A stretch of 38,679 bases of DNA from positions 1-38,679 of IMG/VR virus record IMGVR_UViG_3300042896_000896. The stretch is one strand, 5' to 3'. Position 1 is the stretch's first letter. Every line of letters starts with the position of its first letter. Both the position numbers and the translations under genes were made by a program. Below are positions 5,596-36,583 of the stretch, one piece after another. The notes under the pieces are model-generated. The model saw only the letters and a list, made by a program, of their open reading frames with translations. It had not been told where the DNA came from and did not search any database. The DNA comes from a virus.

Positions 5596-7203
5596 TTAGA
5601 TAGTCTCTAAACCATTTACATAAATTTTTCCAAAATAATCTGGACGAATCATTTTCTTCGCGTAACGAGTCATAAGACCTTTACGTGGAGTAAATGTTTC
5701 TGGATCGTACAATAGAGGAGTCATGATCAAAGGAACATATGGAGCGAATACTGCACCTGCTTCTAAGAATTGAGCACCTTTGTAACCCATTAATATAACG
5801 TTTTCAGTCATATATGGATTCTTGTACACTTTGTAACGGCTATTTAATGAACCAATTTTCTGAATTCCGAAATTGTATTCTGCTTTTTCTCCATCACCAT
5901 CAGCAGCAAATCCTGGAATTGATTCCAATACAGTTGATATAGTTGGAGATACTACCATAAAGTTAGCACCACCACGTAATGATAATTGGTGAATTTTGTT
6001 AGATACTTTTTGTAATTTAGTACCTAAAGTTTGGAACCAACCACCTTGAGTGTTGTAGAAACCACCTGTTGTAGCTGAAGATTGTGTAAATCCACTACCA
6101 TTCCATACTTCGTTATTTCTTGCTGACCAGAAATCAACAGTGAAAGCGTTTTGGATCAACATATCTAACAATTCAAGATCAATTTCCATTGAAATGTATT
6201 GAGATAAGATACCAGTTAATTCTGCTTCAGCATCAACACTATGGTAAGCATTTAAATCCTGTGCAAATTCTGGAGTCCATTGTGCTTTTAACTTACGTGT
6301 TTTAGCAACAATAGCTTCTGATTTTAACTGAACATTGATTTCAGGAATTGAAATTGGATTAGCTTGAGATAAGTTTCCACCATCTTCAAAATCACCACGT
6401 GACTCAGGAGAAGTAACTTTGTTATAAGTTAATAAACCAGTAGTACCAGCAAAACCAGTGCTACCTGATACGATTAACGTTAAAGCACCACCTGGAGTGA
6501 AACTAGTGAATTGTTGTAAAATATTAGAAGCTGCTAAAGCATTAGATCCTGAAGTTACAACGAAAGATCTGATTCCGTTTACATCAAATGAACTAGAAAT
6601 AGAAGTTAATTGACCAGCAGCAACAGTAACTTTAGTTAAAGAACCAGTAGCTACAAATGCACCATCATAATTAACATCAGCAAAAGAAACTGAACCTGTT
6701 GAGAAAGTTACAGAAGCTGTTGGAGAGTTATATGAATAAGAGAAACGACCAGCCTCATATAAGCTACCGTTAATTTCGGTTACGTTAGTAGAAGCATTAG
6801 CACCATAAAGTGAATCTCCAGAAGTATATGGTTGTTTTGTAGTACCATATTTAAAATCTAGATAGAAAACTAGACCTGAAGGTAAGTTCATTGGTTGAAC
6901 TGAAACGAATTCTTTCGCTGCAATTTGACCAAATACTCTTCTTACTAAAGGTAAAGCAACACCAGCCCAGTTTTCTGAGTTGTATCCACCACCAGACATA
7001 CTAGCAGTTCCACCAGTTACGTTTCCTTCGGTGATTAATTGTTTTGCTTGATTTTCAAGCAACATTGACATTGTGTTTTGATCAATTTTATTAGAAATAC
7101 CTTCTAATAATCCTGAATTAACCCATTTATCAGATAGACGTTTTGCATCGTCAGATACCTGCTTAAATTGGTTAGATGATTCTAATAATTGTTGTACGTT
7201 CAT
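5596..7203 (-). CDS. gp23: Major capsid protein, gp23 family
   Basis: 535 residues. The segment LVRRVFGQIAAKEFVSVQPMN followed by P-S-G-L-V-F-Y-L (about residues 86-115) matches the T4 gp23 region where VRRAIPNLIAFDICGVQPM is followed by SPTGQVFAL. The N-terminal 59 residues form a propeptide-like helix-rich arm ending KQLITE|G at 57-60, a good match for T4 prohead protease specificity and close to the T4 cleavage point at residue 65. A Ser/Thr/Gly-rich insertion (about 165-270) corresponds to the variable insertion domain. The C-terminal TRYAKKMIRPDYFGKIYV is also typical. No Shine-Dalgarno sequence precedes the ATG; the leader is A/T-rich, as in highly expressed Bacteroidota genes. Confidence 0.97.
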   Translation of the reverse strand: MNVQQLLESSNQFKQVSDDAKRLSDKWVNSGLLEGISNKIDQNTMSMLLENQAKQLITEGNVTGGTASMSGGGYNSENWAGVALPLVRRVFGQIAAKEFVSVQPMNLPSGLVFYLDFKYGTTKQPYTSGDSLYGANASTNVTEINGSLYEAGRFSYSYNSPTASVTFSTGSVSFADVNYDGAFVATGSLTKVTVAAGQLTSISSSFDVNGIRSFVVTSGSNALAASNILQQFTSFTPGGALTLIVSGSTGFAGTTGLLTYNKVTSPESRGDFEDGGNLSQANPISIPEINVQLKSEAIVAKTRKLKAQWTPEFAQDLNAYHSVDAEAELTGILSQYISMEIDLELLDMLIQNAFTVDFWSARNNEVWNGSGFTQSSATTGGFYNTQGGWFQTLGTKLQKVSNKIHQLSLRGGANFMVVSPTISTVLESIPGFAADGDGEKAEYNFGIQKIGSLNSRYKVYKNPYMTENVILMGYKGAQFLEAGAVFAPYVPLIMTPLLYDPETFTPRKGLMTRYAKKMIRPDYFGKIYVNGLETI

Positions 7204-8395: not shown

Positions 8396-9019
8396 TTAAC
8401 AAAGTGGACAAACCCCCGTCTGATTACAAATTATTTCTGTAATTAAATTATTTACTTTATTATAATCTTTTTGTGATTGATGGGTCTTTCCTTCAGCTAA
8501 AGACATATATGCTTCAGGAGTTGAAGGTACTGAAACTAAATCCCAACATAATAACTCAAAATCCTCTTGTACTTCAACTGTTTCTCCAATTTGCTTAACA
8601 GAACCCATACCACGAGAAGATATACCTAATGGAATACCTGCTGATATTAGTTCTTGAGCAATTTTACCTGATGGAGTATTTAATAACATTAATTCTCCCA
8701 TCACGTTATTTCCATCCCACCATACTTTAGTAATATTGTGGGAAACATTATTTAAGTTAACGATTGAGGATTCAGGATGATCTAATTCACCCATAGCTGT
8801 TTTTTGTGTTACTGGGCCTTCTATGTATTTTTCAATTTGTTTTAATAGAATATCTTTAGGATAAACACGACCATTACCATTTTTTACTTCAGCTTCTTGT
8901 AATTTACCTCTGATGCGCATTCTACCATCAGACATAGTTTTGCCTTCAGTTAATGATAATTTAGCGATGTGGAAGGGGGTATGATCTATTAATAATTGCT
9001 TATTCATATCTTTAGTCAT
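8396..9019 (-). CDS. gp21: Prohead core protein protease, gp21 family
   Basis: 207 residues from the ATG at 9019. A GTG at 9025 and an ATG at 9007 are in frame; 9019 is chosen because it overlaps the upstream stop (AATGACTAA) and follows GGTGAAA. The serine protease signature is present: His 81 in GELDHPES and Ser 134 or 135 in GISSRGMGS, in the order and spacing of T4 gp21. The N-terminal RGKLQEAEVKNGNGRVYP is typical of the family. In T4, gp21 digests the scaffold and trims gp23, gp24 and internal proteins after (L/I)-x-E. This copy has candidate self-cleavage sites (LTE|G at 23-26, LQE|A at 40-43, ITE near the C-terminus). It is the enzyme expected to process the tagged cargo described in the findings. 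Confidence 0.95.
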   Translation of the reverse strand: MTKDMNKQLLIDHTPFHIAKLSLTEGKTMSDGRMRIRGKLQEAEVKNGNGRVYPKDILLKQIEKYIEGPVTQKTAMGELDHPESSIVNLNNVSHNITKVWWDGNNVMGELMLLNTPSGKIAQELISAGIPLGISSRGMGSVKQIGETVEVQEDFELLCWDLVSVPSTPEAYMSLAEGKTHQSQKDYNKVNNLITEIICNQTGVCPLC

Positions 9020-10079
9020 TTTCACCAGTTACGTCAGTTAAATTATCACGTCCATCGAACATTTCTTTCATCATTTTACGAACTAATTCTTTTAATTTTA
9101 ATTTAGAATCTGGTTTCATTGCTTCGTTCATTTTATCAGAAATATAATATTGATATACTTCTGTCTCTCCAATATCACTAAGTCTATCAGCATCTACTTT
9201 AAATGAATTTCTTAATTTATCTAAATCTTTGTATGGTAGTTCTTTATAATCATCATATATAATACTAACACCCCCATTACTATCACCAATTTGTGAATTT
9301 TTTAATGTTTCGTCTGAAAGTAATGCTTTAATATCTTCTATTTTGGCTTCATTCATAGATGAAGATGTTAATTCTGCTATATCTTCCTCATCCAATCCGG
9401 TTTTTTCAGACACATTAGTACCATAAACAGGACCTGCTAGATTTTCCCATACTTTTGTAATTTTAATTACATCTCCAATCTTTACATTCTTATATACAGG
9501 ATAAGGGTCTTTTTGTAGGTTTTTTACTGTAAAGCTATCTCCAATTTTATATTTGTATGTATATTGACTTTCTTTAATAACAACCATTTTATTTTTATCA
9601 TCAACAAAATTGTCTCCATTTTTGTTAACTTCTTCCATTTCATCAAATTCAGACTTACGTTTAGTAGATGTAAATTCAGTTGGTTGTAAGCCTCTAATAC
9701 CTGTTAATTTATAATTAGTATAGTAAAATTGATCTTTTTTAAGATTTTTAATTACTAATTTAACTGCTTCTTTTTGATCTATATTAGGATTATCTTGTTT
9801 TTCCATAACATATCCTGCCATTATTTCTTGGGCGTTCATGTTATCCAATTCATTGAATTTACTATATTGTTCTTTACCGTCTTGATTGTAGTATCCTGTT
9901 GCTGAAGTGTCTTTAATTTCAGAGATAATACCCTTATTAATTAAGATTTTTTCAGCTTGTTTAAATAAAGTTACATTACTGATATATTCAGGTAAAGTCA
10001 TTCTAACATTGCGCATAAATTGCGCTTCTGACATTTTACCTTCCTTAAGAGCAATATATTGATTTTTTATACTTTTCAT
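9012..10079 (-). CDS. Conserved hypothetical protein upstream of the prohead protease
   Basis: 355 residues, no catalytic motif recognised. The first 55 residues (YIALKEGKMSEAQFMRNVRM, then a helix ending ILINKGII) form a helical module that I recall from marine T4-like phage proteins. A middle stretch has a beta-rich KIGDSFTVKNL...GDVIKITKVWENLAGPVYG part resembling a small SH3-like barrel. The C-terminal KELVRKMMKEMFDGRDNLTD is helical. It lies between portal and protease, where T4 has core proteins gp67 and gp68, and LKE|G at 11-14 would suit gp21 processing. I infer a prohead core or internal head protein, with low certainty. It overlaps the protease gene by 8 bases. Confidence 0.6.
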   Translation of the reverse strand: MKSIKNQYIALKEGKMSEAQFMRNVRMTLPEYISNVTLFKQAEKILINKGIISEIKDTSATGYYNQDGKEQYSKFNELDNMNAQEIMAGYVMEKQDNPNIDQKEAVKLVIKNLKKDQFYYTNYKLTGIRGLQPTEFTSTKRKSEFDEMEEVNKNGDNFVDDKNKMVVIKESQYTYKYKIGDSFTVKNLQKDPYPVYKNVKIGDVIKITKVWENLAGPVYGTNVSEKTGLDEEDIAELTSSSMNEAKIEDIKALLSDETLKNSQIGDSNGGVSIIYDDYKELPYKDLDKLRNSFKVDADRLSDIGETEVYQYYISDKMNEAMKPDSKLKLKELVRKMMKEMFDGRDNLTDVTGEND

Positions 10080-17481: not shown

Positions 17482-18002
17482 TTTTTAATTATATTAAAAC
17501 CATCTCTAATGGTATATAAGTTATAGTTGGTTAAGGTTTTTATTTGTTTATCTAAGTATGCTTGGTATAAATATGACTTTTGTTCTTTTCCCGTTAATAA
17601 ATTTATATCTTTGTTTGTTGCTTCTATATACAAACCATCAGGATTATTATTTTGAATAAATTCTTTAACAATATATGATAATGTAGTCATTATTCTTAAT
17701 ATTGTTTTTATATCTGATTTTAATGCTTGGTTTTCAATTCCATTAATAGTAAATTCTACATTATAAAATTCTTTATTTTTATAATTAGGTACTTTAGAAA
17801 AATAATATTGTTTAGTAATATCATCTTCAATCAATGTAAATCTAACTTTAACTACATAAGAAATATCATTAAAATAAAATACAAATGAATAATTAGTATT
17901 ACTTATTTTTTTATAATCAAGTGGTTCCACAGACGCTTCACCTATTTCATTGATGATGATTTCGTCTACTATTTCAGTAATTAAAGTACGTAATGAAGCC
18001 AT
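17478..18002 (-). CDS. Tagged protein with recurrent alpha/beta domain
   Basis: 174 residues. Leader MASLRTLITE|I with Glu 10 and a second site at IINE|I. The body resembles a domain also seen in the 138-residue protein (27471-27887) and within the 799-residue protein (about residues 470-575): beta strands with NYSFVFYF and VVKVRFTL, then a helix ending FIQNNNPDGLYIEA and a later Tyr-rich helix (YLYQAYLDKQI). The counterpart in the large protein reads FINNNNPKALYISG. I recall the pattern from marine phages; the layout weakly resembles a GNAT acetyltransferase core, but no acetyl-CoA motif is clear. A TATTTATA motif lies 3 bases before the ATG. Confidence 0.6.
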   Translation of the reverse strand: MASLRTLITEIVDEIIINEIGEASVEPLDYKKISNTNYSFVFYFNDISYVVKVRFTLIEDDITKQYYFSKVPNYKNKEFYNVEFTINGIENQALKSDIKTILRIMTTLSYIVKEFIQNNNPDGLYIEATNKDINLLTGKEQKSYLYQAYLDKQIKTLTNYNLYTIRDGFNIIKK

Positions 18003-21499: not shown

Positions 21500-22639
21500 T
21501 TATTTTAAATCTTCAAAATCTATTTCGGCACTTGATCCTTTTAATTCATTATCTTTATATAATAAGCCTTTACTAAATGATCTAAATTCAATACCATATG
21601 CTTGACCAATATGATTTGAAAAGGCAAATACAGGTTCATCTTCTGTTCCTATTACATCTTCAACATCAGTATATATTTTATAACAATTAACAGTTAATAC
21701 TCCATTTTCAAAAGTATAATCATTATATCCTTCAAAATCTTCTTTAATTACTATTGTTTTGGGAACATCGTTACCAAATATAACATCATTAATTACTTCT
21801 GGAGGAGTATTTTTTATAATTACCTTAGATAATATTTTTTCATTTTGTGGATCAAATAATTTAAATTTATTTTTTGTTCCTTCAATAGGAAGTAAACTTA
21901 CATTTTCAAATTCATTTTGGTTTACTTTTTCTATAAAATTTTTAAATACATTAATTCCTCCAACAAGTCTTGATTTTGAACTTTCCCATCTAACAGCATT
22001 TCTTTGTTTTAAAGAAATATTAGATAATATTTTATCAGATGAATCTAATAATTGAGCATCAGCTTTAGCAAATTCTGTGGCACCGGTAATTGAACTATCT
22101 ATACACTTATCTACATTTTTAACTACTATATTCTTTTTATCACTTTTAAATATAACAGTTATAGGACCTCCGTTCTCATCAACTTTATTATTAATTAATT
22201 CATAAAAAGATGCCTCATTTTGTTTACCTGATGATTGAGCCCCCTGTCCTGATTTTGGTTTAACTAAAATCTGAACATCATCTTCATTTTTAAAACCACC
22301 TTGACCAGAACCTGGTATTGATTTATCTCTTATGTATCCTAAATCTTCGAGTTGCTTAAATATTTTAGGTCTAGATTCATCACTTAGTATAATTAAACGA
22401 TTAGATGATGAATATAATATATCATCTTGAGAAATATTTAATTGTTGCATTAATTGTTTTCCTACTTCTTGAGCTTTAGGAGATAAAGAAGAAAAAGGTT
22501 TTTTAGCTTCATTTAAATCAATTCCTAATTCATTTAAAACTTGCTCTAATATAGCTTTTTTTTGAGGATTATTTAAGTCAACAACACCATCATTGCAACG
22601 ATATGACCATTCTAATAATATGCTATCTATAGTAATCAT
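21500..22639 (-). CDS. Tagged putative nuclease-like protein
   Basis: 379 residues. Leader MITIDSILLE|W with Glu 10; a second candidate site is DLNE|A at residues 41-45. The middle part carries GKQNEASFYELIN (Glu 142), VVKNVDKC, AKADAQLLDS (Asp 194) and ILSNISLKQRNAVRWESSKSR (Lys 211). The acid-acid-(x)-x-K order and the SLKQ strand suggest a PD-(D/E)XK-type nuclease, but the usual Glu before x-K is Ser here, so this is tentative. The first 130 residues are helical plus a QILVKPKSGQG strand. The C-terminal 120 residues are beta-rich. If packaged, a nuclease would enter the host with the DNA. It overlaps the upstream stop by one base. Confidence 0.55.
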   Translation of the reverse strand: MITIDSILLEWSYRCNDGVVDLNNPQKKAILEQVLNELGIDLNEAKKPFSSLSPKAQEVGKQLMQQLNISQDDILYSSSNRLIILSDESRPKIFKQLEDLGYIRDKSIPGSGQGGFKNEDDVQILVKPKSGQGAQSSGKQNEASFYELINNKVDENGGPITVIFKSDKKNIVVKNVDKCIDSSITGATEFAKADAQLLDSSDKILSNISLKQRNAVRWESSKSRLVGGINVFKNFIEKVNQNEFENVSLLPIEGTKNKFKLFDPQNEKILSKVIIKNTPPEVINDVIFGNDVPKTIVIKEDFEGYNDYTFENGVLTVNCYKIYTDVEDVIGTEDEPVFAFSNHIGQAYGIEFRSFSKGLLYKDNELKGSSAEIDFEDLK

Positions 22640-23139
22640 TATACTTCAATTTCTTCCTCAGGTGCTTCTTCTGGAGTTTCTGCTGGTTCATTAGCGGCTG
22701 CTAATTCAGCTCCTAATTCAGCTCCTTTATCTGTAGGTGGGGCTGCTTCCTCTTTTACTTCAGTAGGAGCATAATTTAATTCTAATAATGAAGTTATACT
22801 AGATGATGCTCTTTCTAATTCACCAAGATTTTCAGCATAATATTTTTTACCAGATACTTTAACCATAAATTCATCTTTACCTAAATAATATATGTAAAAA
22901 AATTGTGAATTTATTAAACTAATTTTAAAAGTTGTTGGTTTTGGAGCAATAACACTAACATCAGAAATATATCTTCCAAAAGCAGGAGACATTAATTCTA
23001 CTAATGTTTTTTTTAAACCAGGAAATCGATATACTAAATACATCGATTTTACTGATTTCTTTTCTGCTACTTCTTGTTCTTTTAGGGCTTTTTGAACAGC
23101 AACTGAAATATATTTTTCTAATATTAATTTATTCATCAT
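22639..23139 (-). CDS. Conserved tagged protein with acidic Ala/Glu/Pro tail
   Basis: 166 residues. The leader MMNKLILEKYISVAVQKALKE|Q is longer than most here but ends in L-K-E. The core LMSPAFGRYISDVSVIAPKPTTFKI followed by FFYIYYLGKDEFMVKVSGKKYY (each about residues 48-105) is a beta-rich domain I recall from marine T4-like phages, function unknown. The C-terminal 45 residues are low-complexity (Ala, Glu, Pro). It starts inside the end of the upstream 146-residue gene (ATGATGAATAA overlap). Confidence 0.6.
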   Translation of the reverse strand: MMNKLILEKYISVAVQKALKEQEVAEKKSVKSMYLVYRFPGLKKTLVELMSPAFGRYISDVSVIAPKPTTFKISLINSQFFYIYYLGKDEFMVKVSGKKYYAENLGELERASSSITSLLELNYAPTEVKEEAAPPTDKGAELGAELAAANEPAETPEEAPEEEIEV

Positions 23140-23569
23140 TTTTTATTTCATGAAAACCTTGAGCAGCTTGCTCAATATAGTTTTCTGCTTTAGCAATGTG
23201 GTCTTGAATCCAACCTGGGATATTACGTTCTGTATTTCCTAATTGTTGTCTTAATTCAACAATTGCTTTTGCAATTTCTTCTAAGCTAGAAACAGCCATT
23301 GCTACTTCGTGATCACCTTCTTTAAGATTAGCAGCTACTGCTTTACGGCGCTTAGATAAGTATTTATCTGTCTTATCTACTTTACCATCGTTATTAATAT
23401 CATCATCTTCTTTACCTACTGGATCTAATGCTTCAGATTTAGAAGCAGCAATAGCATACATAGCAGGATCATTCTTTTTAAATTTTCCTGTTTTCTTTAA
23501 TGCTTTAACTATTTTTTCTTCTTTAGCAGATATATTGCGTTCAGAGATAAGGTCGATTAATTTTATCAT
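23129..23569 (-). CDS. Tagged protein with calcium-loop (EF-hand/dockerin-like) motif
   Basis: 146 residues. Leader MIKLIDLISE|R has Glu 10. Residues about 57-68 read DINNDGKVDKTD, a complete Ca2+ loop (acidic or Asn side chains at 1, 3, 5, 9 and 12, Gly at 6), followed by KYLSKRRKAV. I recall the same unit in many marine phage proteins. The C-terminal NIPGWIQDHIAKAENYIEQ followed by AAQGFHE is another recurrent phage module. A small helical protein that could bind calcium inside or after leaving the head; the real role is unknown. A (K/N)DPAMYAIAASK segment precedes the loop. Confidence 0.65.
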   Translation of the reverse strand: MIKLIDLISERNISAKEEKIVKALKKTGKFKKNDPAMYAIAASKSEALDPVGKEDDDINNDGKVDKTDKYLSKRRKAVAANLKEGDHEVAMAVSSLEEIAKAIVELRQQLGNTERNIPGWIQDHIAKAENYIEQAAQGFHEIKNDE

Positions 23570-23579
23570 TTTTTTTAAC

Positions 23580-24365
23580 TTATGGTTGGGATTTAAGTTT
23601 TTTTATAACAGCAATTTCTTTTTTAGGAATGGGAAATTGTGAAAGTGTTCCATCTGGTTTATAGGATCCAATTACTATAGTTGATGGATTAATTTTTACA
23701 ATTTCTCCTATCCTTTCTATTTGAACTACATCCCCACTATAGCCTCTTTTAATTTCATATTTAACTTTATCTCCAACTTTAAGATTTGCAAATTTTTGTA
23801 AATAAGCGTCTTCGGGTTCCCATGACATTGTTTGGGATCCAGAACCTGCTCCACCTCCACTTAATTTAAAAGCTTCTTTAATTTCTTCTTTTTTTTCAGC
23901 TTTTTTTTCAGCTTTTTTTCCTTTTTCAAATTCATATTTTTCATCATCTCCCACATATTTTTCTTCTTGATCTTCGTCTTTTTTAGGAGCTTTTTTATCT
24001 TTTTTTTTAGGAGCTTTAGGAGCTTTTTCAATAAGACCCATCAATTCTTTAATTTTTTCAGTTTCAGATTTAATTTTACCTTCAACTTCAGTAATTTGAC
24101 CACCTAACATTTCAGATAATTTAGCAGAAGCCATTTTAATTTTTTCTAATTCATTAACATATTTTTGCATATGAGCATATTCAGCAACAACTGGGGCTAA
24201 ATTATTTTCATTCATTGTAAGTTGACTTACAGATTCTTGCATTTGTTTTAGACTAGCTAATTCTTTTTTAAGGTGTACTAATTTACCACCACTCTTAGGT
24301 AATCCTGATTCTTTAGCTTCTGCTATTACTTGAGAGATTACTGATTTTATTTCGCTTAATTTCAT
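23580..24365 (-). CDS. Tagged coiled-coil protein with C-terminal SH3-like domain
   Basis: 261 residues. Leader MKLSEIKSVISQVIAE|A ends in I-A-E|A, very like the T4 internal-protein cleavage FIAE|A. Residues 25-115 form a coiled coil, 115-165 a Lys/Glu/Pro-rich linker, and a Gly/Ser spacer precedes a C-terminal beta-rich domain (LKVGDKVKYEIKRGYSGDVV, then IGEIVKINPSTIVIGSY) typical of SH3-like barrels. A second LTMNENN block is present in the coiled coil. The function is not recognised. An internal DNA-condensing or structural head protein would fit the composition. Confidence 0.6.
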   Translation of the reverse strand: MKLSEIKSVISQVIAEAKESGLPKSGGKLVHLKKELASLKQMQESVSQLTMNENNLAPVVAEYAHMQKYVNELEKIKMASAKLSEMLGGQITEVEGKIKSETEKIKELMGLIEKAPKAPKKKDKKAPKKDEDQEEKYVGDDEKYEFEKGKKAEKKAEKKEEIKEAFKLSGGGAGSGSQTMSWEPEDAYLQKFANLKVGDKVKYEIKRGYSGDVVQIERIGEIVKINPSTIVIGSYKPDGTLSQFPIPKKEIAVIKKLKSQP

Positions 24366-24383
24366 TTTTATTGGGTTTATTTT

Positions 24384-24563
24384 TTATAATAATTTTTTAT
24401 ATTTGTTAATTACTTTAAGTTTAGTAATAGGGTCTTTAGCATTATTAAATTCTCTTTCTAAACCAACTATTGATTTTGATTTTTGTTCTAATTTATTTTT
24501 TAATTCATTAAATAATTTATCAAAATCTAAATTCTCATTTATTAAATCTATTAATTTTATCAT
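24384..24563 (-). CDS. Tiny tagged protein (59 aa)
   Basis: 59 residues, read directly from the sequence: leader MIKLIDLINE|N, then a Lys/Glu/Leu/Asn-rich helix (DKLFNELKNKLEQKSKSIVG) ending INKYKKLL. The ATG at 24563 overlaps the TGA of the preceding small basic gene (ATGA), and the stop is at 24384. With 10 of 59 residues matching the shared leader, it is among the clearest cases: almost nothing but leader plus one helical hairpin. It may be an internal head peptide like those T4 packs. Confidence 0.65.
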   Translation of the reverse strand: MIKLIDLINENLDFDKLFNELKNKLEQKSKSIVGLEREFNNAKDPITKLKVINKYKKLL

Positions 24564-24700
24564 CCTTGTCCTCTACTTAATTTAATATAATTTCTTGATT
24601 GTTTTAAAGATGATGCTTTAGTTTTAGCATGTACGCCTTTTCTACGTACTTTTGAGCGTCTTTTAAACGTTTTAACGGTTTGAGTTTTTGCCTTTGCCAT
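24560..24700 (-). CDS. Small basic protein (46 aa), KTFKRR...KGVHAKTK type
   Basis: 46 residues from the ATG at 24700: MAKAKTQTVKTFKRRSKVRR, then KGVHAKTKASSLKQSRNYIK and a LSRGQG end. About a third of residues are Lys or Arg with almost no acids, as in nucleic-acid-binding or DNA-condensing proteins. I recall close matches (KGVHAKTK...SKNYKK...RGQGR) from marine T4-like phages. It has no leader of the tag type. It is translationally coupled to the tiny tagged gene. A packaged histone-like or ribosomal-protein-like role are both possible. Confidence 0.7.
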   Translation of the reverse strand: MAKAKTQTVKTFKRRSKVRRKGVHAKTKASSLKQSRNYIKLSRGQG

Positions 24701-24741
24701 TTTTATCGGTAATAACTTTTTAGTTTAAATTAATTGTTATA

Positions 24742-24750
24742 TATAAATAT
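24742..24750 (-). promoter_or_regulatory. Candidate late-promoter motif ATATTTATA
   Basis: Coding-strand ATATTTATA, 41 bases before the ATG of the small basic gene and 18 bases past the stop of the 293-residue gene. Confidence 0.5.
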
Positions 24751-24767
24751 TAACAAATTTTATATTA

Positions 24768-25649
24768 TTACCATTTGCGGCAACTCCAATATCTTGCTTT
24801 AGTACGTGGTCCAGGATTATCGCAATTATGTCTAGCTCTAAATGCTTTACGTCGTACAGGATTATTTTTCTTTATATTCATCCCTTTAGCACCAAAATTG
24901 ACTTTAACAACTTTACCTGTTTTAGGGTTTTTAACATATACTTTAAATTTCTTACTATCACCCTGCATTGGTTTACCTAATGGTACAGTACGACCTTGAT
25001 ATTTAGCTTCAAGTAAACAGTTACAATCAACTTCAGATAATTGTTGTTGATATTCTCTCATAAACTCAATAAATTCTTTTATGTCTTGTTCATTTTCAAC
25101 ATCATATTCATCTAAATCATTATTGTATTTATAACTATTATCAAAATTACATTTATGACATAGATATGGATCTTCTCCTCCATCAGATAATTTCCATCTC
25201 CATCCACATTTTTCACATTCAATATTTAAGTCTTGTATTTCTTTAAGACTAACTTTTGCTTTTTTAGTATTAGGAACAAACTGTTTATCTGATGCTGCTT
25301 TTTTCTTTGATGTAGCAGCGCGTTCTGCTTTAGTTAAACTATTTGCTTTAGCACGAGGTAAACAACGAGTTGTTTTATTACCTTTTTTCATTGTACCACA
25401 AGGACCAGTTATGTTACCTGCTGTATCTATTCTTACCCAATCTTCTTTTTGAAACCAATCACGCAATGATTCATGCATGTCTAAATCATCTTCTTCCATT
25501 AACCCCTTACATACTTTTACAGCACGACCTGAAAGATAAGCGGATGGTTTTTCACCAGCAGCTTTACGGCGGTTATAGTAAGCTTTACCCTTAGGGCATA
25601 GTTTTTTTTCAGTTAGTATTTCGTTTAATATGTCTGTTAATTTAGTCAT
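24768..25649 (-). CDS. Tagged multidomain basic protein with zinc ribbon (DUF5872-like)
   Basis: 293 residues. Leader MTKLTDILNE|I with Glu 10 and a second site ILTE|K at 11-15. Then LCPKGKAYYNRRKAAGEKPS and AYLSGRAVKVCKG (17-49), and ESLRDWFQKEDWVRIDTAGN with PCGTMKKGNKTTRCLP (60-100), which I associate with DUF5872-type phage proteins. A zinc ribbon has Cys 145, Cys 148, Cys 164 and Cys 167. After an acidic spacer and LLE|A at 212-215, the C-terminal part (KFKVYVKNPKTGKVVKVNFG, then FRARHNCDNPGPRTKARYW) is a separate module often found alone in marine phages. The Lys/Arg-rich composition suggests nucleic-acid binding; the exact job is unknown. Confidence 0.65.
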   Translation of the reverse strand: MTKLTDILNEILTEKKLCPKGKAYYNRRKAAGEKPSAYLSGRAVKVCKGLMEEDDLDMHESLRDWFQKEDWVRIDTAGNITGPCGTMKKGNKTTRCLPRAKANSLTKAERAATSKKKAASDKQFVPNTKKAKVSLKEIQDLNIECEKCGWRWKLSDGGEDPYLCHKCNFDNSYKYNNDLDEYDVENEQDIKEFIEFMREYQQQLSEVDCNCLLEAKYQGRTVPLGKPMQGDSKKFKVYVKNPKTGKVVKVNFGAKGMNIKKNNPVRRKAFRARHNCDNPGPRTKARYWSCRKW

Positions 25650-26265
25650 TTTTAATTTCTTTCATATCATAATAAAATGAATCTCCATCTTCAGTTATCC
25701 ATCTATCTGATTGATTTTCAACTGATGGTAATTCAGTATCTACTTTAAATTGTTTTAAATCTTTTGGAAGTGATTTAGTTACCCAATTTGAATCTTTCCA
25801 AAATATTCTATTGTTTGGCATACATAATAAATATCCTTCATCTGATTCAAATATATGCCCACATTTGTAATCTGAAGGTTCATCACTATATGGATTATTA
25901 TACCAATCTACTGTAAATAAATATGTACCCCAAACTTTACTACCATCTCTTAAAACAACTTGTGCTCTATGAAATGCTAAAAAATCATATTCTGTTATAG
26001 AAACATTTTCGCTAAAGCAATCCCAAAGTTGTTTAAAATTAAATGGTATATCATTTGTTGGAATTTTTGTATAAATTTCTGATAATGGGACTCTAGAGCG
26101 AACCATTCCATTATCTACCATAACATGAAATGTTAATATAGTTCCAGCACATGATTGAAGTCCAAAAACATATACATCATAAAACTCATCCGAATCTTTA
26201 TGATTTTTAGTAAAATATGATTTGCGAACTAATGCTTTAAAACTTGGAATATTTGCATTTAACAT
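25642..26265 (-). CDS. Conserved hypothetical protein (207 aa)
   Basis: 207 residues (MLNANIPSFKALVRKSYF). The segments FHVMVDNGMVRSRVPLSEIY, LWDCFSENVSITEYDFL and KVWGTYLFTVDWY, followed by CGHIF and MPNNRIFW, are ones I recall from T4-like cyanophages and other marine phages, where the protein is conserved but uncharacterised. It is beta-rich, Trp/Phe/Tyr-rich and lacks the tag. It overlaps the upstream gene by one base and the downstream tagged gene by 8 bases. A virion or regulatory role cannot be decided from sequence. Confidence 0.65.
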   Translation of the reverse strand: MLNANIPSFKALVRKSYFTKNHKDSDEFYDVYVFGLQSCAGTILTFHVMVDNGMVRSRVPLSEIYTKIPTNDIPFNFKQLWDCFSENVSITEYDFLAFHRAQVVLRDGSKVWGTYLFTVDWYNNPYSDEPSDYKCGHIFESDEGYLLCMPNNRIFWKDSNWVTKSLPKDLKQFKVDTELPSVENQSDRWITEDGDSFYYDMKEIKND

Positions 26266-26582
26266 TATTTATCTCTTATTAGTAATTCACCTATTACTTC
26301 TAAACGTCCAACTTCACGTTGAAATTCTATTTGAGTCATATTTAATGATATGCTTTTTAGTGTTTTTTCAAATTCTTTTTTAGCAGCTTCTTTATCAAAT
26401 TTACCTTCAGTAGCTTTTTTATAATATGGAGCCTTAACTTTAAAATGATGCCATGTTAGTAAAGATAATCCACCTTTTTCTTCAGCAGTAGAAGCAATTT
26501 TAGCAGCACCTTTACCACGAATAGTAGCAAAATTTTCAAATGTTTCTTTTACTTCGTTTAATATATCAACTAGTTTAATCAT
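26265..26582 (-). CDS. Small tagged protein (105 aa)
   Basis: 105 residues. Leader MIKLVDILNE|V with Glu 10. The body is Lys-rich and helical: IRGKGAAKIASTAEEKGGLS, LLTWHHFKVKAPYYKKA, then QIEFQREVGRLEVIGELLIR. I recall this core from marine T4-like phages, usually without assigned function. Single-base overlaps tie it to both neighbours (stop and start share a base). It may be an internal head protein processed by gp21. Confidence 0.65.
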   Translation of the reverse strand: MIKLVDILNEVKETFENFATIRGKGAAKIASTAEEKGGLSLLTWHHFKVKAPYYKKATEGKFDKEAAKKEFEKTLKSISLNMTQIEFQREVGRLEVIGELLIRDK

Positions 26583-26848
26583 TATTGTTTTGATAAAAAT
26601 TCTACTTTAACACGTAATTCTGCTACTTCAGATGTTAATTTTAATACTAAACCTCTTAATTCATCTTTTTCTTTACCAGCTGCTTCTAAAAGAGTTTCTA
26701 ATTTTGCAATTCTATCTTTACAATCATGTCTAATAAATTCATCATCACGTTCTCTAAACATTGCTCGTTTTTCGTAGTAACGAAATGCCTGAGAGCCACC
26801 TAAAACCGTTATTGCTGTTATTAAAACAGTCCAGATATTACTTTCCAT
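26582..26848 (-). CDS. Membrane-anchored coiled-coil protein (88 aa)
   Basis: 88 residues. One N-terminal hydrophobic segment (IWTVLITAITVLGG, residues 5-18) followed by SQAFRYYEKRAMFRERDDE and a long coiled coil (about 45-88, ending VAELRVKVEFLSKQ). The topology, a short membrane anchor and coiled coil, is found in small phage proteins of the lysis or tape-measure-helper kind, but no pinholin or spanin signature is clear. It follows a TATTTATA motif 24 bases upstream and starts the run of genes leading to the DUF5872-like gene. Confidence 0.6.
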   Translation of the reverse strand: MESNIWTVLITAITVLGGSQAFRYYEKRAMFRERDDEFIRHDCKDRIAKLETLLEAAGKEKDELRGLVLKLTSEVAELRVKVEFLSKQ

Positions 26849-26872
26849 ATAATTTTTAAGTGTGAATTTGAG

Positions 26873-26881
26873 TATAAATAT
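26873..26881 (-). promoter_or_regulatory. Candidate late-promoter motif ATATTTATA
   Basis: Coding-strand ATATTTATA ends 24 bases before the ATG at 26848 and touches the stop of the upstream 194-residue gene. Confidence 0.5.
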
Positions 26882-27465
26882 TATGAATTACTATGTTCCT
26901 TAAGAGAATTAATATATTCTACTAAGTCATTCATTATTGTTTTCTTATCTATATTACCACCAGACCATTTTTCAATATCTCCTGCCTCAGTAACAAATGA
27001 CTCATTATTATCATTTAAAGCTAATTCTAATAAAAAATCTTCTAATTCTTTAATATAAACATCTAAACCTTTATCTATTATATTACGTTCATATTCTTTA
27101 TATGTTCCTAACATTTTTAGTTTAGTTTCAAATTCGATAACACAATTAAAACACATTTTGTGGATTGAATACATTTTTCTATTCAATTCAAAATTCTTCA
27201 TATGTTTACTACATTTAGGACATATTAAGGGGAGTTGTAATATTTTTTTAATATCATCTAATTTAGAAACAGTCATTTTAATACCGTTTTTTATAGTCCA
27301 TGTTTTACTATTTTCTTCCCATATATCTCCTTCATTTCGTTCTATATATTCTTTAGAATATCCTACTTGAGATTGTGTTTTTGCACTATAATCTTTTGTA
27401 ATTAGATTACGCATCCTTTGAACATCGCGTTGACGAAATTCACGTTGTAACTTTGATTCAGACAT
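26881..27465 (-). CDS. Conserved hypothetical protein with Cys4 zinc-binding motif
   Basis: 194 residues. KLQREFRQRDVQRMRNLITK is an N-terminal helical module that I recall from T4-like marine phages, followed by GYSKEYIERNEGDIWEENSK and a strand TWTIKNGIK. Two Cys pairs, CPKC (about residues 88-91) and CFNC (111-114), probably bind zinc. The C-terminal half is helical and acidic. Function unknown; the zinc module and the conserved basic helix would suit nucleic-acid binding. No tag. Confidence 0.65.
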   Translation of the reverse strand: MSESKLQREFRQRDVQRMRNLITKDYSAKTQSQVGYSKEYIERNEGDIWEENSKTWTIKNGIKMTVSKLDDIKKILQLPLICPKCSKHMKNFELNRKMYSIHKMCFNCVIEFETKLKMLGTYKEYERNIIDKGLDVYIKELEDFLLELALNDNNESFVTEAGDIEKWSGGNIDKKTIMNDLVEYINSLKEHSNS

Positions 27466-27470
27466 AATAA

Positions 27471-27887
27471 TTATTTTATTTCAGTTTTTTCTATTACCTC
27501 GGGATTAAGGAGTTTTGGGAAAAAGTGTTTATATACTCTTCTACGTTTTTCATCAGTACCATCAATAATAATTTTGTCTATTTCTTCTTCATATTGATAA
27601 TAAAAATCATTAATTATTTCAGCTATTGTTTGGAGAATATTTCTAACATCACCTTCTCCAGTCATTTGAAATGTATCTATCTTATTAAATTTACCAGTGT
27701 TTATCCCAAATGCTACTTCAAATTCTCTAGCTTTTTCTTTAGAATTTAATACAACTGTATAATTATTTTTCTTTGATTTAAAATTATATTCAACAGTTAT
27801 TAAACTATTATCTTCGTCATCATATACTATATCATATTCTGAAAAAGGGTATGATGATTCTTTTAGTATACTTATTAATTTAATCAT
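27471..27887 (-). CDS. Small tagged protein with recurrent alpha/beta domain
   Basis: 138 residues. Leader MIKLISILKE|S with Glu 10. Beta strands (SLITVEYNFKSKKNNYTVVL) lead into a helix NILQTIAEIINDFYYQYEEE, then IDKIIIDGTDEKRRRVYKHF. This layout (helix, then a short strand with an (I/L)-(I/Y)-I-(D/S/E)-(G/A) end, then Arg/Lys-Tyr helix) parallels the 174-residue protein at 17478-18002 and residues about 515-560 of the adjacent 799-residue protein. It overlaps the stop of that large gene by ATGA, so the two are translated together. Confidence 0.6.
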   Translation of the reverse strand: MIKLISILKESSYPFSEYDIVYDDEDNSLITVEYNFKSKKNNYTVVLNSKEKAREFEVAFGINTGKFNKIDTFQMTGEGDVRNILQTIAEIINDFYYQYEEEIDKIIIDGTDEKRRRVYKHFFPKLLNPEVIEKTEIK

Positions 27888-30283
27888 AATTCTAGTTTTT
27901 TTAATTGTTCTATTGTATTATTAGTAGATGTATGTAAAATACCTATACCTCCAGCATCTTTCCATTGTTGAATATTATCTTTTCTATCATCAATTAATAT
28001 AGCATTGGGTTCTGCTAATTCTTGTTTTTCAGGTGCTGGTTTAAGTATTAATTCAGTTCCAGGTATATTAGTTCTAACCCAAATTTCTTTTCCTACTCTA
28101 GATGATTTCTCTCTTGATGGTGCTGATAATATAGATGGAGAATAATTTTTAATATATTTCCATAATTGTTTTCCATCGGGCATCCAATCTAAATTTATCC
28201 AAAAATTAGCACCAGCATCTGTAATAGGTTGCCAGAAATCAGCATCACCTTTAACATGGTTTCCTTTAATATCTTTACCTGTTAATCTTTCATAACCATC
28301 TTCAAAATCTACGAGTACCCCATCCATATCGCAGTATATTTTATATTGTTGTTCTTCATTTATATTGTATAGTTCTTTTAAAACTTCTCTTTTTATTTTT
28401 TTTAATATTGATTTATTTCTTTCTATTTTTGATTTTGAATTTAAATCACCATTTTGCCAATAATCTAATGCTTGTTCATATGATTCATTTAAAGTCTTCA
28501 TTCTTTTTTTGATATTATCTTTTGCAACTTCTTCAATAGATCTTAAAACAACTCTAGTTTCATCACTATTATCAATTTTATATTTATCATTTAATATAGT
28601 TTGAAGTTTAGTTATATAATTTTTATATAAAGATGTTTTTCCTTCAGTATTACCTGATATATATAATGCTTTTGGATTATTGTTATTTATAAAATCATTA
28701 ATAATTTTAAAAGAAGTAGCAGTTACTTGTTTCCAAGCTTCTGATGAGGTATTTTTATTATTTGGGGTAAAGTTCCAATTTATTGAGTATTTACCTTCCC
28801 AATTTTCAAATTTAAAGTAATACTTAGCTTCAATATCATCTCCATTCCCGACTATATATTCAGTATTAGATATTTTTTCTATGTTAGGTAGATCTTTTTC
28901 AAATAATTCATTTAGAAAATATTTTTTATATTCGTTTTTTTTTTCTATCATAACACCTTCATATATTCCTTTATTGTCTTTTCCAAATTTACGTAATAAA
29001 ACACCTGCTTGTGCATTTGCTTCATTTTCAATTTCAGATCCAGTTTCACCCGATCCTTGTTTTATTCTATTATCTTCACCTTGTTTATGATGAACTAATT
29101 CATGTGCTAATGTTCTTAATATATCAGCTGTATTTCTATTTTTAATATAAATCCAAATATGATTTGAATTTGGATTAAAATATCCAAATGTACCTTTTTC
29201 TTGAGATTCATTAGTATCGTATGAAAATTTAACTGTAGGTAGTTTTTGGATTCCTAATTCATTAATAGCAAACTTTACAAATTCAGCTATTTGAGATTTT
29301 TTTTGAATTTTATTTTCGTTAATTTGTAAATTTAAAGTTGCTTGTAATACAGTAGGTATTATTTTTAAAGCTTTATATAATGCTAATATAACTTCTCCAC
29401 CTACTAAATAATATTTATCTTGACTATAATTTAATACTAATGGTAAAGGTAATTCTTCTCCATTCTTTATAGCTTCAATATATGGTTTTACTTTTATTCC
29501 TTTATCATGAGCATATCTAATAGCATGTTCTAAATTATTAATACTATATGAATTTGTATTTTGTAATTTAGACCAAACATCATCACCTAATACAACAGGA
29601 GTTCCAGCATTAAAAGCATATTCCATATCAGGAATAGGAAGATTAAAATAAGCAGCTGCTTTTTCTATTTTATCTCTTTGTTTTAGAATATAATCTTGAT
29701 AATCATCTTGTTCAAATTCAAGAGGAGGAGATTCTTGTAATTTTTCAGAAGTAGCAATACTTAAAGCATTTTTAAATTCTTCAACGTCAACATCTTTAGG
29801 AATATATTTTTCAATTTCTTTTGAATTTTTCCAACGTAACGCATTACGTAAATAAGTTGCACTAATACCTTCTTCAGCTGAACCAGCATCATATATAGAG
29901 GCATTATTATATTTTCCTGATGTTTTTATTTGGTTAAATCTATCTGATTCGCCTTTACCAAAAGCAACTATAAATTTTTGATCAGGATTATTTTTTATAA
30001 CATCATATGCCTCACTAACAGGGCTTGTAGCTGCAATTTTAAATGATACATTTGAATCTAAAAATGGAGCATATAGTTGCCATATAGCAAAGCTTTCTTC
30101 TGCACTAACTCCATCTCTTGAATTTGGGGAAATTAAAACAATAACTTCATCAGCTAATGTAGAAAGTTGTTTAACTACATCATAATGACCTTTATGTGGT
30201 GGTTTAAAGGCACCAGGAAATATTGCTATTGTTTTTTGGTTTTCTTCTAATAATAGATTTACTAAATATTCTCCTAAATTCAT
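27884..30283 (-). CDS. Tagged multi-enzyme protein: nucleotidyltransferase, ParB-like, metallopeptidase, HAD phosphatase
   Basis: 799 residues. Leader to LLE|E at 11-14. Domain 1 (17-170): HxGH nucleotidyltransferase, FPGAFKPPHKGH at 22-33 and GISATYLR at 139-146, the family of NMN adenylyltransferase and cytidylyltransferases. Domain 2 (about 215-318): ParB/sulfiredoxin-like, with LPLVLNY and YYLVGGEVILALYKAL. Domain 3 (325-435): zincin peptidase, HELVH at 394-398 with a possible third ligand in ENEANAQ (419-425). Domain 4 (470-575): alpha/beta domain shared with two neighbours. Domain 5 (646-799): HAD phosphatase, DMDGV at 652-656 and ILIDDRKDN at 762-770. Between domains lie (L/I)-x-E motifs at 182-184, 321-323, 457-459, 598-600 and 641-643. 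I infer a polyprotein cut by gp21 in the head. The substrates are unknown. Confidence 0.8.
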   Translation of the reverse strand: MNLGEYLVNLLLEENQKTIAIFPGAFKPPHKGHYDVVKQLSTLADEVIVLISPNSRDGVSAEESFAIWQLYAPFLDSNVSFKIAATSPVSEAYDVIKNNPDQKFIVAFGKGESDRFNQIKTSGKYNNASIYDAGSAEEGISATYLRNALRWKNSKEIEKYIPKDVDVEEFKNALSIATSEKLQESPPLEFEQDDYQDYILKQRDKIEKAAAYFNLPIPDMEYAFNAGTPVVLGDDVWSKLQNTNSYSINNLEHAIRYAHDKGIKVKPYIEAIKNGEELPLPLVLNYSQDKYYLVGGEVILALYKALKIIPTVLQATLNLQINENKIQKKSQIAEFVKFAINELGIQKLPTVKFSYDTNESQEKGTFGYFNPNSNHIWIYIKNRNTADILRTLAHELVHHKQGEDNRIKQGSGETGSEIENEANAQAGVLLRKFGKDNKGIYEGVMIEKKNEYKKYFLNELFEKDLPNIEKISNTEYIVGNGDDIEAKYYFKFENWEGKYSINWNFTPNNKNTSSEAWKQVTATSFKIINDFINNNNPKALYISGNTEGKTSLYKNYITKLQTILNDKYKIDNSDETRVVLRSIEEVAKDNIKKRMKTLNESYEQALDYWQNGDLNSKSKIERNKSILKKIKREVLKELYNINEEQQYKIYCDMDGVLVDFEDGYERLTGKDIKGNHVKGDADFWQPITDAGANFWINLDWMPDGKQLWKYIKNYSPSILSAPSREKSSRVGKEIWVRTNIPGTELILKPAPEKQELAEPNAILIDDRKDNIQQWKDAGGIGILHTSTNNTIEQLKKLEL

Positions 30284-31053
30284 TTTATAAAATTATTAAT
30301 TTTTGTTTTTGCTGTATCTATTGAATCAAATTCAGGTATGTTTTGGATTAACTGTGTTATATCAGTATTTAGTTGTTCTCTATCAGCAGCGGCTTTAGCT
30401 GCTTCTTCAGGTGTTTTTTCTTTACCTTTAAATTTAGCAGTATCAAAAAAACGTTTTTTAATATCCTCAACGTTATATTCAGTTTCAGCTTCTTTAGGAT
30501 TATTATTAATTAATACAAAGTTATCTCCAAATATTTTTTCATATTCATCAATATTTTTATTTACATCTCTCCATGTACGTAATACGATTTGGGGTAATAA
30601 AGAACGTCTATTATCCACCCCACGTGCTAAATTTCTTTCTAATGAAGTTAAAGGAGAAACCCATATCATAATCATGAATGTTTCATATCCTAATGCTTCT
30701 AGTTCTTCTTTTTTCTTTAATACTGGTTTAATAGCAGCTCCTGTACCATCAATTATAATATTTTGTCTTTGAGATGATAACTCTGTGTATTTTTCTTTAG
30801 TTGATTTTTTAGCTTGGGCCATTAATTTAGCAGATTGTGATAATTCTTCAGGACCAAAATCCTTTTGTGACATACCTAAACCAGCCGTTTTTAACAACTC
30901 CTCATATGTATCATCGATGTTTATGACATTAAATTGATCGGGTTGAATTAACTGTTTAATCGTGTAACTTTTGCCAGATCCAGCAGGACCAGCCAAAAAT
31001 ATTGCTTTAGGCTTTTCAGCTATTTCTTTTAATATATTTATTAATTTTATCAT
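30280..31053 (-). CDS. Tagged P-loop kinase (zeta-toxin / AAA_33 type)
   Basis: 257 residues from the ATG at 31053 (MIKLINILKE|I, Glu 10). An in-frame upstream start at 31089 would lie inside the terminator hairpin and add SGHLFTFILTL, so it is rejected. Walker A GPAGSGKS is at 22-29, followed by an NIDD segment, IIIDGTGA (Walker B-like) and LERNLARGVDNRR (lid arginines). This order fits the zeta-toxin/polynucleotide-kinase-like group of small kinases, which phosphorylate sugars, nucleotides or nucleic-acid ends; the substrate cannot be told here. The C-terminal 60 residues are Lys/Glu-rich and helical. ATGA overlap couples it to the 799-residue gene. Confidence 0.75.
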   Translation of the reverse strand: MIKLINILKEIAEKPKAIFLAGPAGSGKSYTIKQLIQPDQFNVINIDDTYEELLKTAGLGMSQKDFGPEELSQSAKLMAQAKKSTKEKYTELSSQRQNIIIDGTGAAIKPVLKKKEELEALGYETFMIMIWVSPLTSLERNLARGVDNRRSLLPQIVLRTWRDVNKNIDEYEKIFGDNFVLINNNPKEAETEYNVEDIKKRFFDTAKFKGKEKTPEEAAKAAADREQLNTDITQLIQNIPEFDSIDTAKTKINNFIK

Positions 31054-31066
31054 TAATGTTAAAATA

Positions 31067-31101
31067 AAAGTAAAAAGGTGACCTGACAAAGCAAGTCACC
31101 T
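31067..31101 (-). terminator. Rho-independent terminator after the lipoprotein gene
   Basis: AGGTGAC (31076-31082) pairs with GTCACCT (31095-31101), extended by TG/CA around a mismatch. On the minus strand it is followed by a T-rich run (TTTTTACTTTT). It separates the lipoprotein gene from the kinase gene. Confidence 0.8.
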
Positions 31102-35851: not shown

Positions 35852-36583
35852 TTATTCACAACAATTTAAACCACTGGCACTACCAGATGATAAAGTTGAT
35901 GTAACTTTATTATATGGTGGTATAGGATCATAATAATATACGTCTGGTTCAAGAACTAATGCATTTAGACTAATACATACATCGCTAGGATATGTTCCAG
36001 CACTCATATATGATTCACTTCCTGTGATTGCACCTCCACCAAAACAAGTATAATAATCAACAATAACAGTATTATCTTTTGCATTATTTATATCAGTTTG
36101 GTGAATGAATATATTATAATATTCACAAAATTCAGCACATGTTGTAGTAGTTGTAGTTGGTGTAGCAGTTGTGGTTGTAGTTGTTGGTGCAGCAGTTGTA
36201 GTTGTAGTTGTTGTCGTAGGTGCAGCAGTTGTAGTTGTTGTCGTAGGTGCAGCAGTTGTGGTTGTAGTTGTTGGTGTAGCAGTTGTTGTTGTAGTTGTTG
36301 GTGCAGCAGTTGTTGTTGTTGTCGTACTTGTAGTTGTGGTAGTAGGTGGAACAACATTAACTAATTTTATATTTCCACAACCCTCTGCTAAATTTTCAAG
36401 ATATATATTATTAACATCATCAGATACAATAATATTTACTCCTGATAATAATGATGCTTTAGTAGCACTACTAGGAGAAGCAGCAACAAGATTACTATCA
36501 CTTATAGTATTATAGTAGATATTAAAAGGACCAGGACTTGTACTTGTTGCGGGGTCTAATGTTATTAAAAAGTTTTTAGCCAT
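35852..36583 (-). CDS. Virion-like protein with mucin-like Thr/Pro tract
   Basis: 243 residues. Residues 1-80 form a beta-rich head (FLITLDPATSTSPGPFNIYY). Residues about 81-148 are TTTTTTAAPTTTTTT-type repeats with almost only Thr, Ala and Pro. The C-terminal 95 residues contain six Cys (CAEFCEYY, YYTCFGGG, SDVCISLN, LNCCE) and may be disulphide-bonded. Thr/Pro tracts serve as stiff linkers and O-glycosylation targets; two glycosyltransferase genes lie directly upstream in the same run. Proteins with such tracts are frequent in Bacteroidota phages, often as fibre or decoration components. A TATTTATA motif ends 4 bases before the ATG. Confidence 0.65.
   Translation of the reverse strand: MAKNFLITLDPATSTSPGPFNIYYNTISDSNLVAASPSSATKASLLSGVNIIVSDDVNNIYLENLAEGCGNIKLVNVVPPTTTTTSTTTTTTAAPTTTTTTATPTTTTTTAAPTTTTTTAAPTTTTTTTTAAPTTTTTTATPTTTTTTCAEFCEYYNIFIHQTDINNAKDNTVIVDYYTCFGGGAITGSESYMSAGTYPSDVCISLNALVLEPDVYYYDPIPPYNKVTSTLSSGSASGLNCCE
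36141..36350 (-). repeat. Thr-codon low-complexity repeat
   Basis: ACA/ACT/ACC runs broken by GCTGCACC-type Ala-Ala-Pro or Ala-Thr-Pro units, about every 24 to 30 bases, inside the Thr-rich gene. Such tracts change length easily by replication slippage. Confidence 0.9.

Follow-up and report, generated by a model that had tools for sequence, protein, structure and literature searches.

In bacteriophage T4, the internal head proteins and Alt carry a short N-terminal leader ending in L/I-x-E (PMC9026906, PMC9958956). The T4 prohead protease gp21 has a published specificity for L/I-X-E; in the IPIII leader, Asp at P1 stops processing but leaves targeting intact (PMC9026906). As described in the cited passages, such cargo loses terminal peptides only, and multiple gp21 cuts are described for the degraded core proteins gp22, gp67 and gp68 (PMC9026906, PMC9958956). 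Head and ejection proteins of phages SPN3US and phiKZ are cut by gp245 and gp175, gp21-related proteases with a short x-x-E motif, at several sites per protein; 13 of 14 sites in SPN3US remove N-terminal propeptides and one removes a C-terminal propeptide, and the passages cited report no case in which enzymes are separated (PMC10052503, PMC9026906). Polyvalent proteins combine many enzyme domains, including a zincin, in one phage polypeptide, are rapidly shuffled and are presumed to be delivered with the DNA; their processing is ascribed to an embedded peptidase, and the part of that source cited here mentions neither junction sites for a prohead protease nor a leader that targets the capsid (PMC5512222). 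Here we analyse gene P0001, which encodes a multi-enzyme chain in a 38,679-nucleotide IMG/VR fragment (IMGVR_UViG_3300042896_000896; 38.7 kb, 28% GC) of a T4-type phage. The whole fragment is referred to below as the window.

Comparison with relatives indicates that P0001 quite probably encodes a head-packaged cargo polyprotein that has a single leader and is cut apart by a gp21-like protease. It resembles T4 cargo in its leader, in the position of its gene on the same strand and in the same region as gp20-gp23, in the presence of a Peptidase_S77 protease in the same phage, and in its presumed end product, an injected protein. Unlike in T4 cargo, several enzyme domains would be separated from one another. 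With polyvalent proteins it shares a plurality of enzyme domains, the zincin, the shuffling and the presumed delivery with the DNA, and with the SPN3US and phiKZ proteins several short motifs of a gp21-related protease per protein; the protease of phiKZ-type phages prefers S/A-x-E. Targeting plus protease is thus known from T4, and multi-enzyme chains from polyvalent proteins; in the open-access literature we found neither a description of the combination with cassette-by-cassette prohead-protease sites nor a report of prohead-protease processing of multi-enzyme cargo.

The closest cultured relative found is Flavobacterium phage vB_FspM_immuto (Immutovirus), which is also the nearest named phage for the window capsid protein (58.5% identity). 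The phage of the window probably has a host in the Bacteroidota. Immuto encodes a 907-residue chain that combines adenylyltransferase and zincin, has L-x-E junctions and bears no annotation beyond NMN adenylyltransferase, as well as a second polyprotein. Its chain differs from P0001 in that the HAD is a separate leader-bearing gene and a Pol-beta-like domain is fused in front.

Results

L/I-x-E is enriched at cassette breakpoints

Relatives, many of them from water metagenomes, were collected from IMG/VR: 80 for the chain, 80 for the zincin and 13 for the second domain, with some contigs fetched repeatedly. The adenylyltransferase is usually first and the zincin near the chain end, with variable cassettes between them. 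Chains with either domain reach 2214 residues; in the largest (L128, 212-6856) the zincin ends near residue 1380 and 832 residues lie beyond it.

Cassette breakpoints were defined as sharp local-alignment ends between non-identical relatives, which gave 511 breakpoints in 97 non-redundant proteins. An unsupervised scan of all ordered residue pairs at gaps of 0-3, within 12 residues of a breakpoint, returned L.E as the most significantly enriched pair (4.5-fold; 204 near breakpoints, 190 elsewhere) and I.E as the second (4.0-fold). V.E ranked third at the same spacing (2.9-fold); the values for L.K and L.D were 1.26-fold and 0.99-fold. The two top pairs correspond to the published specificity of T4 gp21, and their ranking survived redundancy reduction at 50% and 40% identity. 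A cluster bootstrap (10 clusters, one of them large) gave 4.27-fold enrichment of [LI].E (2.69-8.35), compared with 0.96 for [LI].D and 1.08 for [LI].K. Scan p-values ignore relatedness; the ranking and the bootstrap carry the weight. The control motifs [LI].D, [LI].K and [KR].E were not enriched at breakpoints. In other open reading frames with a leader-like start, lacking adenylyltransferase and zincin, L.E and I.E again ranked within the top three. At P1', Gly and Ser were favoured in junction motifs, and Leu and Ile in cores. [LI].E was scarce in domain cores (observed/expected 0.54 vs 1.12 in other open reading frames; below 1 in each family).

Individual junctions agreed with the scan. 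The second domain is mostly preceded by L-x-E↓S (LQE, LKE, LHE or LNE; ↓, presumed cut) after unrelated, often Pro-rich linkers, and where this domain is the first module the leader ends at the same point. L-x-E followed by S or A is kept there, while x and the left context vary. Chains with a Pol-beta-like domain fused in front keep the leader inside, as in ...TLSE↓TNLGRYLASLILE↓AED (L006) and similarly in L007 and L094. In relative L029, which has another architecture, boundaries of cassette presence or absence fall at residues 423, 577 and 784/785, the Glu residues of LNE423, LNE577 and IKE785; in its model, of low overall confidence, the first two motifs are contained in low-confidence segments, and a further such segment begins at IKE785. 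The immuto second polyprotein (841 residues) lacks HExxH. Its C-terminal module corresponds to a gene that stands alone in the window and has a leader, which aligns with the internal leader of the polyprotein. This polyprotein (L002, 18015-20540) is annotated as hypothetical, and parts of it match two adjacent window genes (22639-23569). These comparisons show that cassettes are gained, lost and exchanged at joints carrying selected L/I-x-E sites. The original prediction had regarded several sites as internal copies of the leader. This description suits some junctions; most resemble bare cleavage sites.

Fused and free-standing domains differ at the joint

At the C-terminal end of the zincin, the residue after I-Y/F was Gln in 25, Glu in 5 and Asp in 4 of the 34 chains ending there. 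In the 27 chains that continue, it was Glu in 24, Asp in 3 and never Gln (Fisher 4e-9 vs terminal chains). [LI].E occurred within 32 residues of the zincin end in all 27 fused chains, the Asp cases included, compared with 15% of core 28-mers.

In most relatives the HAD is encoded separately, by the following gene, which has a leader of its own (MYKLTDLYKQIKEE...QYKIYCDMDG); fusion to the chain is confined to some clades, including that of the window. Each of the 20 distinct fused forms had [LI].E in the 28 residues that precede the catalytic strand, against 15% of core windows. Among free-standing HADs, 42 of 50 distinct forms had [LI].E before the domain and six began directly at the domain. 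The INE↓E motif at residues 641-643 of P0001 sits where the leader ends in separate HAD genes (...IKE↓E...QYKIYCDMDG). Fusions of zincin and HAD in L133, L137, L147-L150, L155-L158 and L161 keep IYE at the joint, and several are clearly without an N-terminal leader.

Modules and sites of the chain

The 799-residue open reading frame was recovered at 27884-30283 as first described; it lies on the minus strand, which had not been stated. Its N-terminal leader, MNLGEYLVNLLLE, ends in L/I-x-E, and relatives retain a leader of variable sequence, internally after upstream fusion. Sequence and fold matches identified an adenylyltransferase, a zincin and a HAD deoxyribonucleotidase as distinct catalytic domains in the one chain, where a polyvalent protein needs two or more. 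Residues 16-178 match the phosphopantetheine/NMN-adenylyltransferase (PPAT/NMNAT) fold (VIA Z about 14), with HKGH at residue 30 and PF01467 above cut-off; from the HxGH motif and the fold match, module 1 is assigned as a PPAT/NMNAT-type nucleotidyltransferase. The zincin has HELVH at residue 394 and matches the phage metalloprotease phrog_87 (E 1.4e-4); its match to Peptidase_M78 is weak. Residues 645-798 match the 5'(3')-deoxyribonucleotidase HAD fold (Z 15.8), with DMDG at residue 652 and a phrog_2643 match. These three assignments stood as originally predicted, and the "alpha/beta" domain proved to be Pfam DUF6934 (residues 491-575, E 1.4e-6). A search that used the DUF6934 domain alone as query confirmed no relatives. 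The "ParB-like" label for residues 186-318 was not confirmed: sequence searches gave no Pfam ParB match and no PDB match. The VIA-align match list was filled by two domains and is uninformative on ParB or zincin.

The chain contains 15 (L/I)-x-E motifs, compared with 11.5 ± 2.9 in shuffled sequences. Motif number is therefore uninformative, which upholds the caution, given with the original prediction, that placement and not number is the argument. The six motifs first listed (11-13, 182-184, 321-323, 457-459, 598-600 and 641-643) were found at those positions; motifs not listed then lie at 332-334, 340-342 (zincin helix 1), 440-442, 460-462, 583-585, 635-637 and 756-758.

An AlphaFold model of the chain, based on a 27-row alignment of relatives (mean predicted local distance difference test [pLDDT] 74), has low-confidence segments at the module joints (176-193, 319-327, 442-466 and 640-645) and four more elsewhere. 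Segments with pLDDT below 50 comprise 87 of 785 residues, and of the 12 non-leader sites, six (those that end at 184, 323, 442, 459, 462 and 643) lie inside or at them (hypergeometric p 8e-4). In this model, placement of the motifs at linkers thus exceeds chance. The motifs had been said to lie near domain boundaries, a claim to be checked by looking for exposed linkers. It was borne out for 182-184, 321-323, 457-459 and 641-643, which lie in low-confidence linkers, and IYE at 440-442 had been overlooked. It failed for 598-600. We dropped this motif as a cleavage site because the model predicts a helix there (589-610) and relative L003 (88% identical) has M-D-E in its place.

Features of the window

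Coordinates of the chain, its predicted modules and sites, and related window genes are listed in Table 1. The minus-strand head genes of the window include those for a gp23-like capsid protein, a scaffold-like protein and a Peptidase_S77 (gp21-like) protease. Peptidase_S77 was also present in 14 of 16 large contigs carrying the polyprotein gene.

Table 1. Positions of the multi-enzyme chain, its predicted parts and related genes in the window (↓, presumed cut).
Feature	Residues	Position	Strand	Remark
Multi-enzyme chain gene (P0001)	799 residues, 91.5 kDa	27884..30283	-	
N-terminal leader MNLGEYLVNLLLE↓	1-13	30245..30283	-	candidate capsid-targeting sequence, gp21-type site
Module 1, HxGH adenylyltransferase (PPAT/NMNAT fold)	14-184	29732..30244	-	predicted product 19.0 kDa
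Site LQE↓S	182-184	29732..29740	-	low-confidence linker 176-193
Module 2, conserved domain	185-323	29315..29731	-	predicted product 15.8 kDa
Site INE↓N	321-323	29315..29323	-	low-confidence linker 319-327
Module 3, zincin-like metallopeptidase (HELVH...ENEAN)	324-442	28958..29314	-	predicted product 13.6 kDa
Site IYE↓G	440-442	28958..28966	-	overlooked in original prediction
Sites LNE↓LFE↓K	457-462	28898..28915	-	low-confidence linker 442-466
Module 4, DUF6934 domain and helical tail	463-643	28355..28897	-	predicted product 21.3 kDa
Motif LNE-S	598-600	28484..28492	-	unsupported as site; predicted helix 589-610
Site INE↓E	641-643	28355..28363	-	low-confidence segment 640-645
Module 5, HAD 5'(3')-deoxyribonucleotidase	644-799	27887..28354	-	predicted product 17.8 kDa
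gp21-like prohead protease, presumed cutter		8396..9025	-	Peptidase_S77, E 2.3e-34
gp23-like major capsid protein		5596..7203	-	LITE↓GN near residue 60, likely its own gp21 site
Separate leader-bearing gene		22639..23139	-	homologue is C-terminal module of immuto second polyprotein, leader internal there

A cluster of small minus-strand genes (21500-31089), most of which open with amphipathic leaders that resemble one another and end in L/I-x-E (MIKLxxIL.E, MITIDSILLE), is likely a cargo island. The gene directly upstream of the polyprotein gene (30280-31089, minus strand) encodes a zeta-toxin/P-loop kinase-like protein (PF06414, E 1e-13) with the leader MIKLINILKE from an internal start. A leader-bearing protein of 293 residues (24768-25649, minus strand) looks composite, with matches to phrog_23735 and phrog_7595 (families 81 and 96 positions long) and a joint near CLLE↓AKYQGR; it is perhaps a second small polyprotein. 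DUF6934-like domains occur in three divergent minus-strand copies: two (17478-18002 and 27471-27887) are free with their own leader and one (28490-28921) is inside the polyprotein. The copy at 17478 has no Pfam match and aligns only to the other two. A further minus-strand gene (35852-36583) encodes a protein with a long threonine/proline-rich repeat of the TTTTTTAAPT type. Over the whole window, 22 of 46 genes had the leader motif, weakly above background (p 0.018); this frequency is weak because cargo genes are mixed with others.

Discussion

The breakpoint ranking, the Glu/Gln contrast at the zincin end, the internal leaders and the 14 of 16 contigs with Peptidase_S77 support the original proposal of one chain with one leader and gp21-like cutting. 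From these comparisons we infer packaging, cleavage, injection and the roles of the enzymes as follows. The leader MNLGEYLVNLLLE would act as a capsid-targeting sequence by which the entire chain would enter the prohead core. Once activated, the gp21-like protease would cut after the Glu of L/I-x-E at residues 13, 184, 323, 442, 459/462 and 643, in what are predicted to be flexible linkers. The adenylyltransferase, a domain of unassigned class, the zincin, the DUF6934 domain and the deoxyribonucleotidase would be released in equal numbers, and the freed modules would be injected with the DNA. The predicted adenylyltransferase and nucleotidase suggest a role in the metabolism of nucleotides or NAD as infection begins.

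Several points weigh against this proposal. The motif count is unremarkable, and the motifs at 332-334, 340-342, 583-585, 635-637 and 756-758 lie within folded parts of the model and would need shielding. The low frequency of [LI].E in cores is partly intrinsic to the domains; because non-cargo HADs of other phages are about equally poor in it, core depletion was rejected as proof of counter-selection and is kept as weak support only. The motif was also enriched at breakpoints of open reading frames chosen for having no leader; miscalled starts and composite cargo genes contaminate this set, so that the one cross-protein negative control is not clean. Chains that start with a Pol-beta-like domain carry the leader internally, and their route of head entry is puzzling. 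Some zincin-HAD fusions keep the IYE site without an obvious leader, which implies either another entry route or another role of the residue. The best domain tree has 11 changes between the fused and the terminal state, of which well-supported branches require only two; tree support for independent switches is thus weak. No proteomics was found for these phages.

If the chain were a polyvalent protein (Iyer et al. 2017), its own zincin, not gp21, would free the parts from one another, whether before packaging, inside the head or in the host. The chain does have HELVH, nearly all members found carry a zincin (although the search was built on it), and autoprocessing by such domains is proposed in the cited part of PMC5512222. 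We consider this explanation unlikely. The junctions bear the gp21 motif, as do the leaders, and such sites also bound the zincin itself; the same kind of junction in the immuto second polyprotein, which has no HExxH, speaks against the zincin as the only cutter. It is quite unlikely, too, that the chain is an uncut multifunctional enzyme whose motifs are leader relics of gene fusion. Some internal sites do lie within clear leader relics and leaderless free-standing HADs occur, but relics would be expected to decay, and many junctions are a bare site with no leader. P3 and P1 are conserved while P2 and the left context vary, and the fused zincin end has Glu instead of Gln.

Two further explanations concern the origin of the motif itself. 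Exchange of cassettes at or beside the motif, for example between L026 and L029, could mean that a conserved DNA word marks recombination joints and not protease cuts. Such a word or DNA hot spot is very unlikely because 127 different DNA 9-mers occur among the 361 junction motifs and almost every Leu and Ile codon is represented. Moreover, the change between Glu and Gln where the zincin ends is a signal at the protein level. That Glu-rich linkers hold L/I-x-E by accident would fit the total of 15 motifs in the chain. This is extremely unlikely, given that the control motifs are not enriched at breakpoints and that a site is present at 27/27 and 20/20 fused junctions where 15% would be expected.

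The cargo-polyprotein reading of P0001 can be extended to its relatives with somewhat more reserve. It appears fairly likely that a widespread group of T4-type phages uses polyproteins cut by the head-maturation protease as modular cargo. Enzyme cassettes bounded by gp21 sites would swap between chains that range from roughly 300 to more than 2000 residues, one leader would load many effectors in a fixed ratio, and the protease that matures the shell would free them. If this is true, such modular cargo would be a phage counterpart of the polyproteins of eukaryotic viruses, with the protease lying outside the chain. The role of the head protease would extend past shell maturation and propeptide removal to the freeing of a set of injected enzymes. 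This would account for the loading of large multi-domain phage proteins in equal numbers and for their release before injection, and would answer for this group which peptidase separates the domains, a question open for polyvalent proteins. It would also provide a sequence rule by which packaged effectors could be spotted, and their ends placed exactly, in metagenomic phages of the T4 type.

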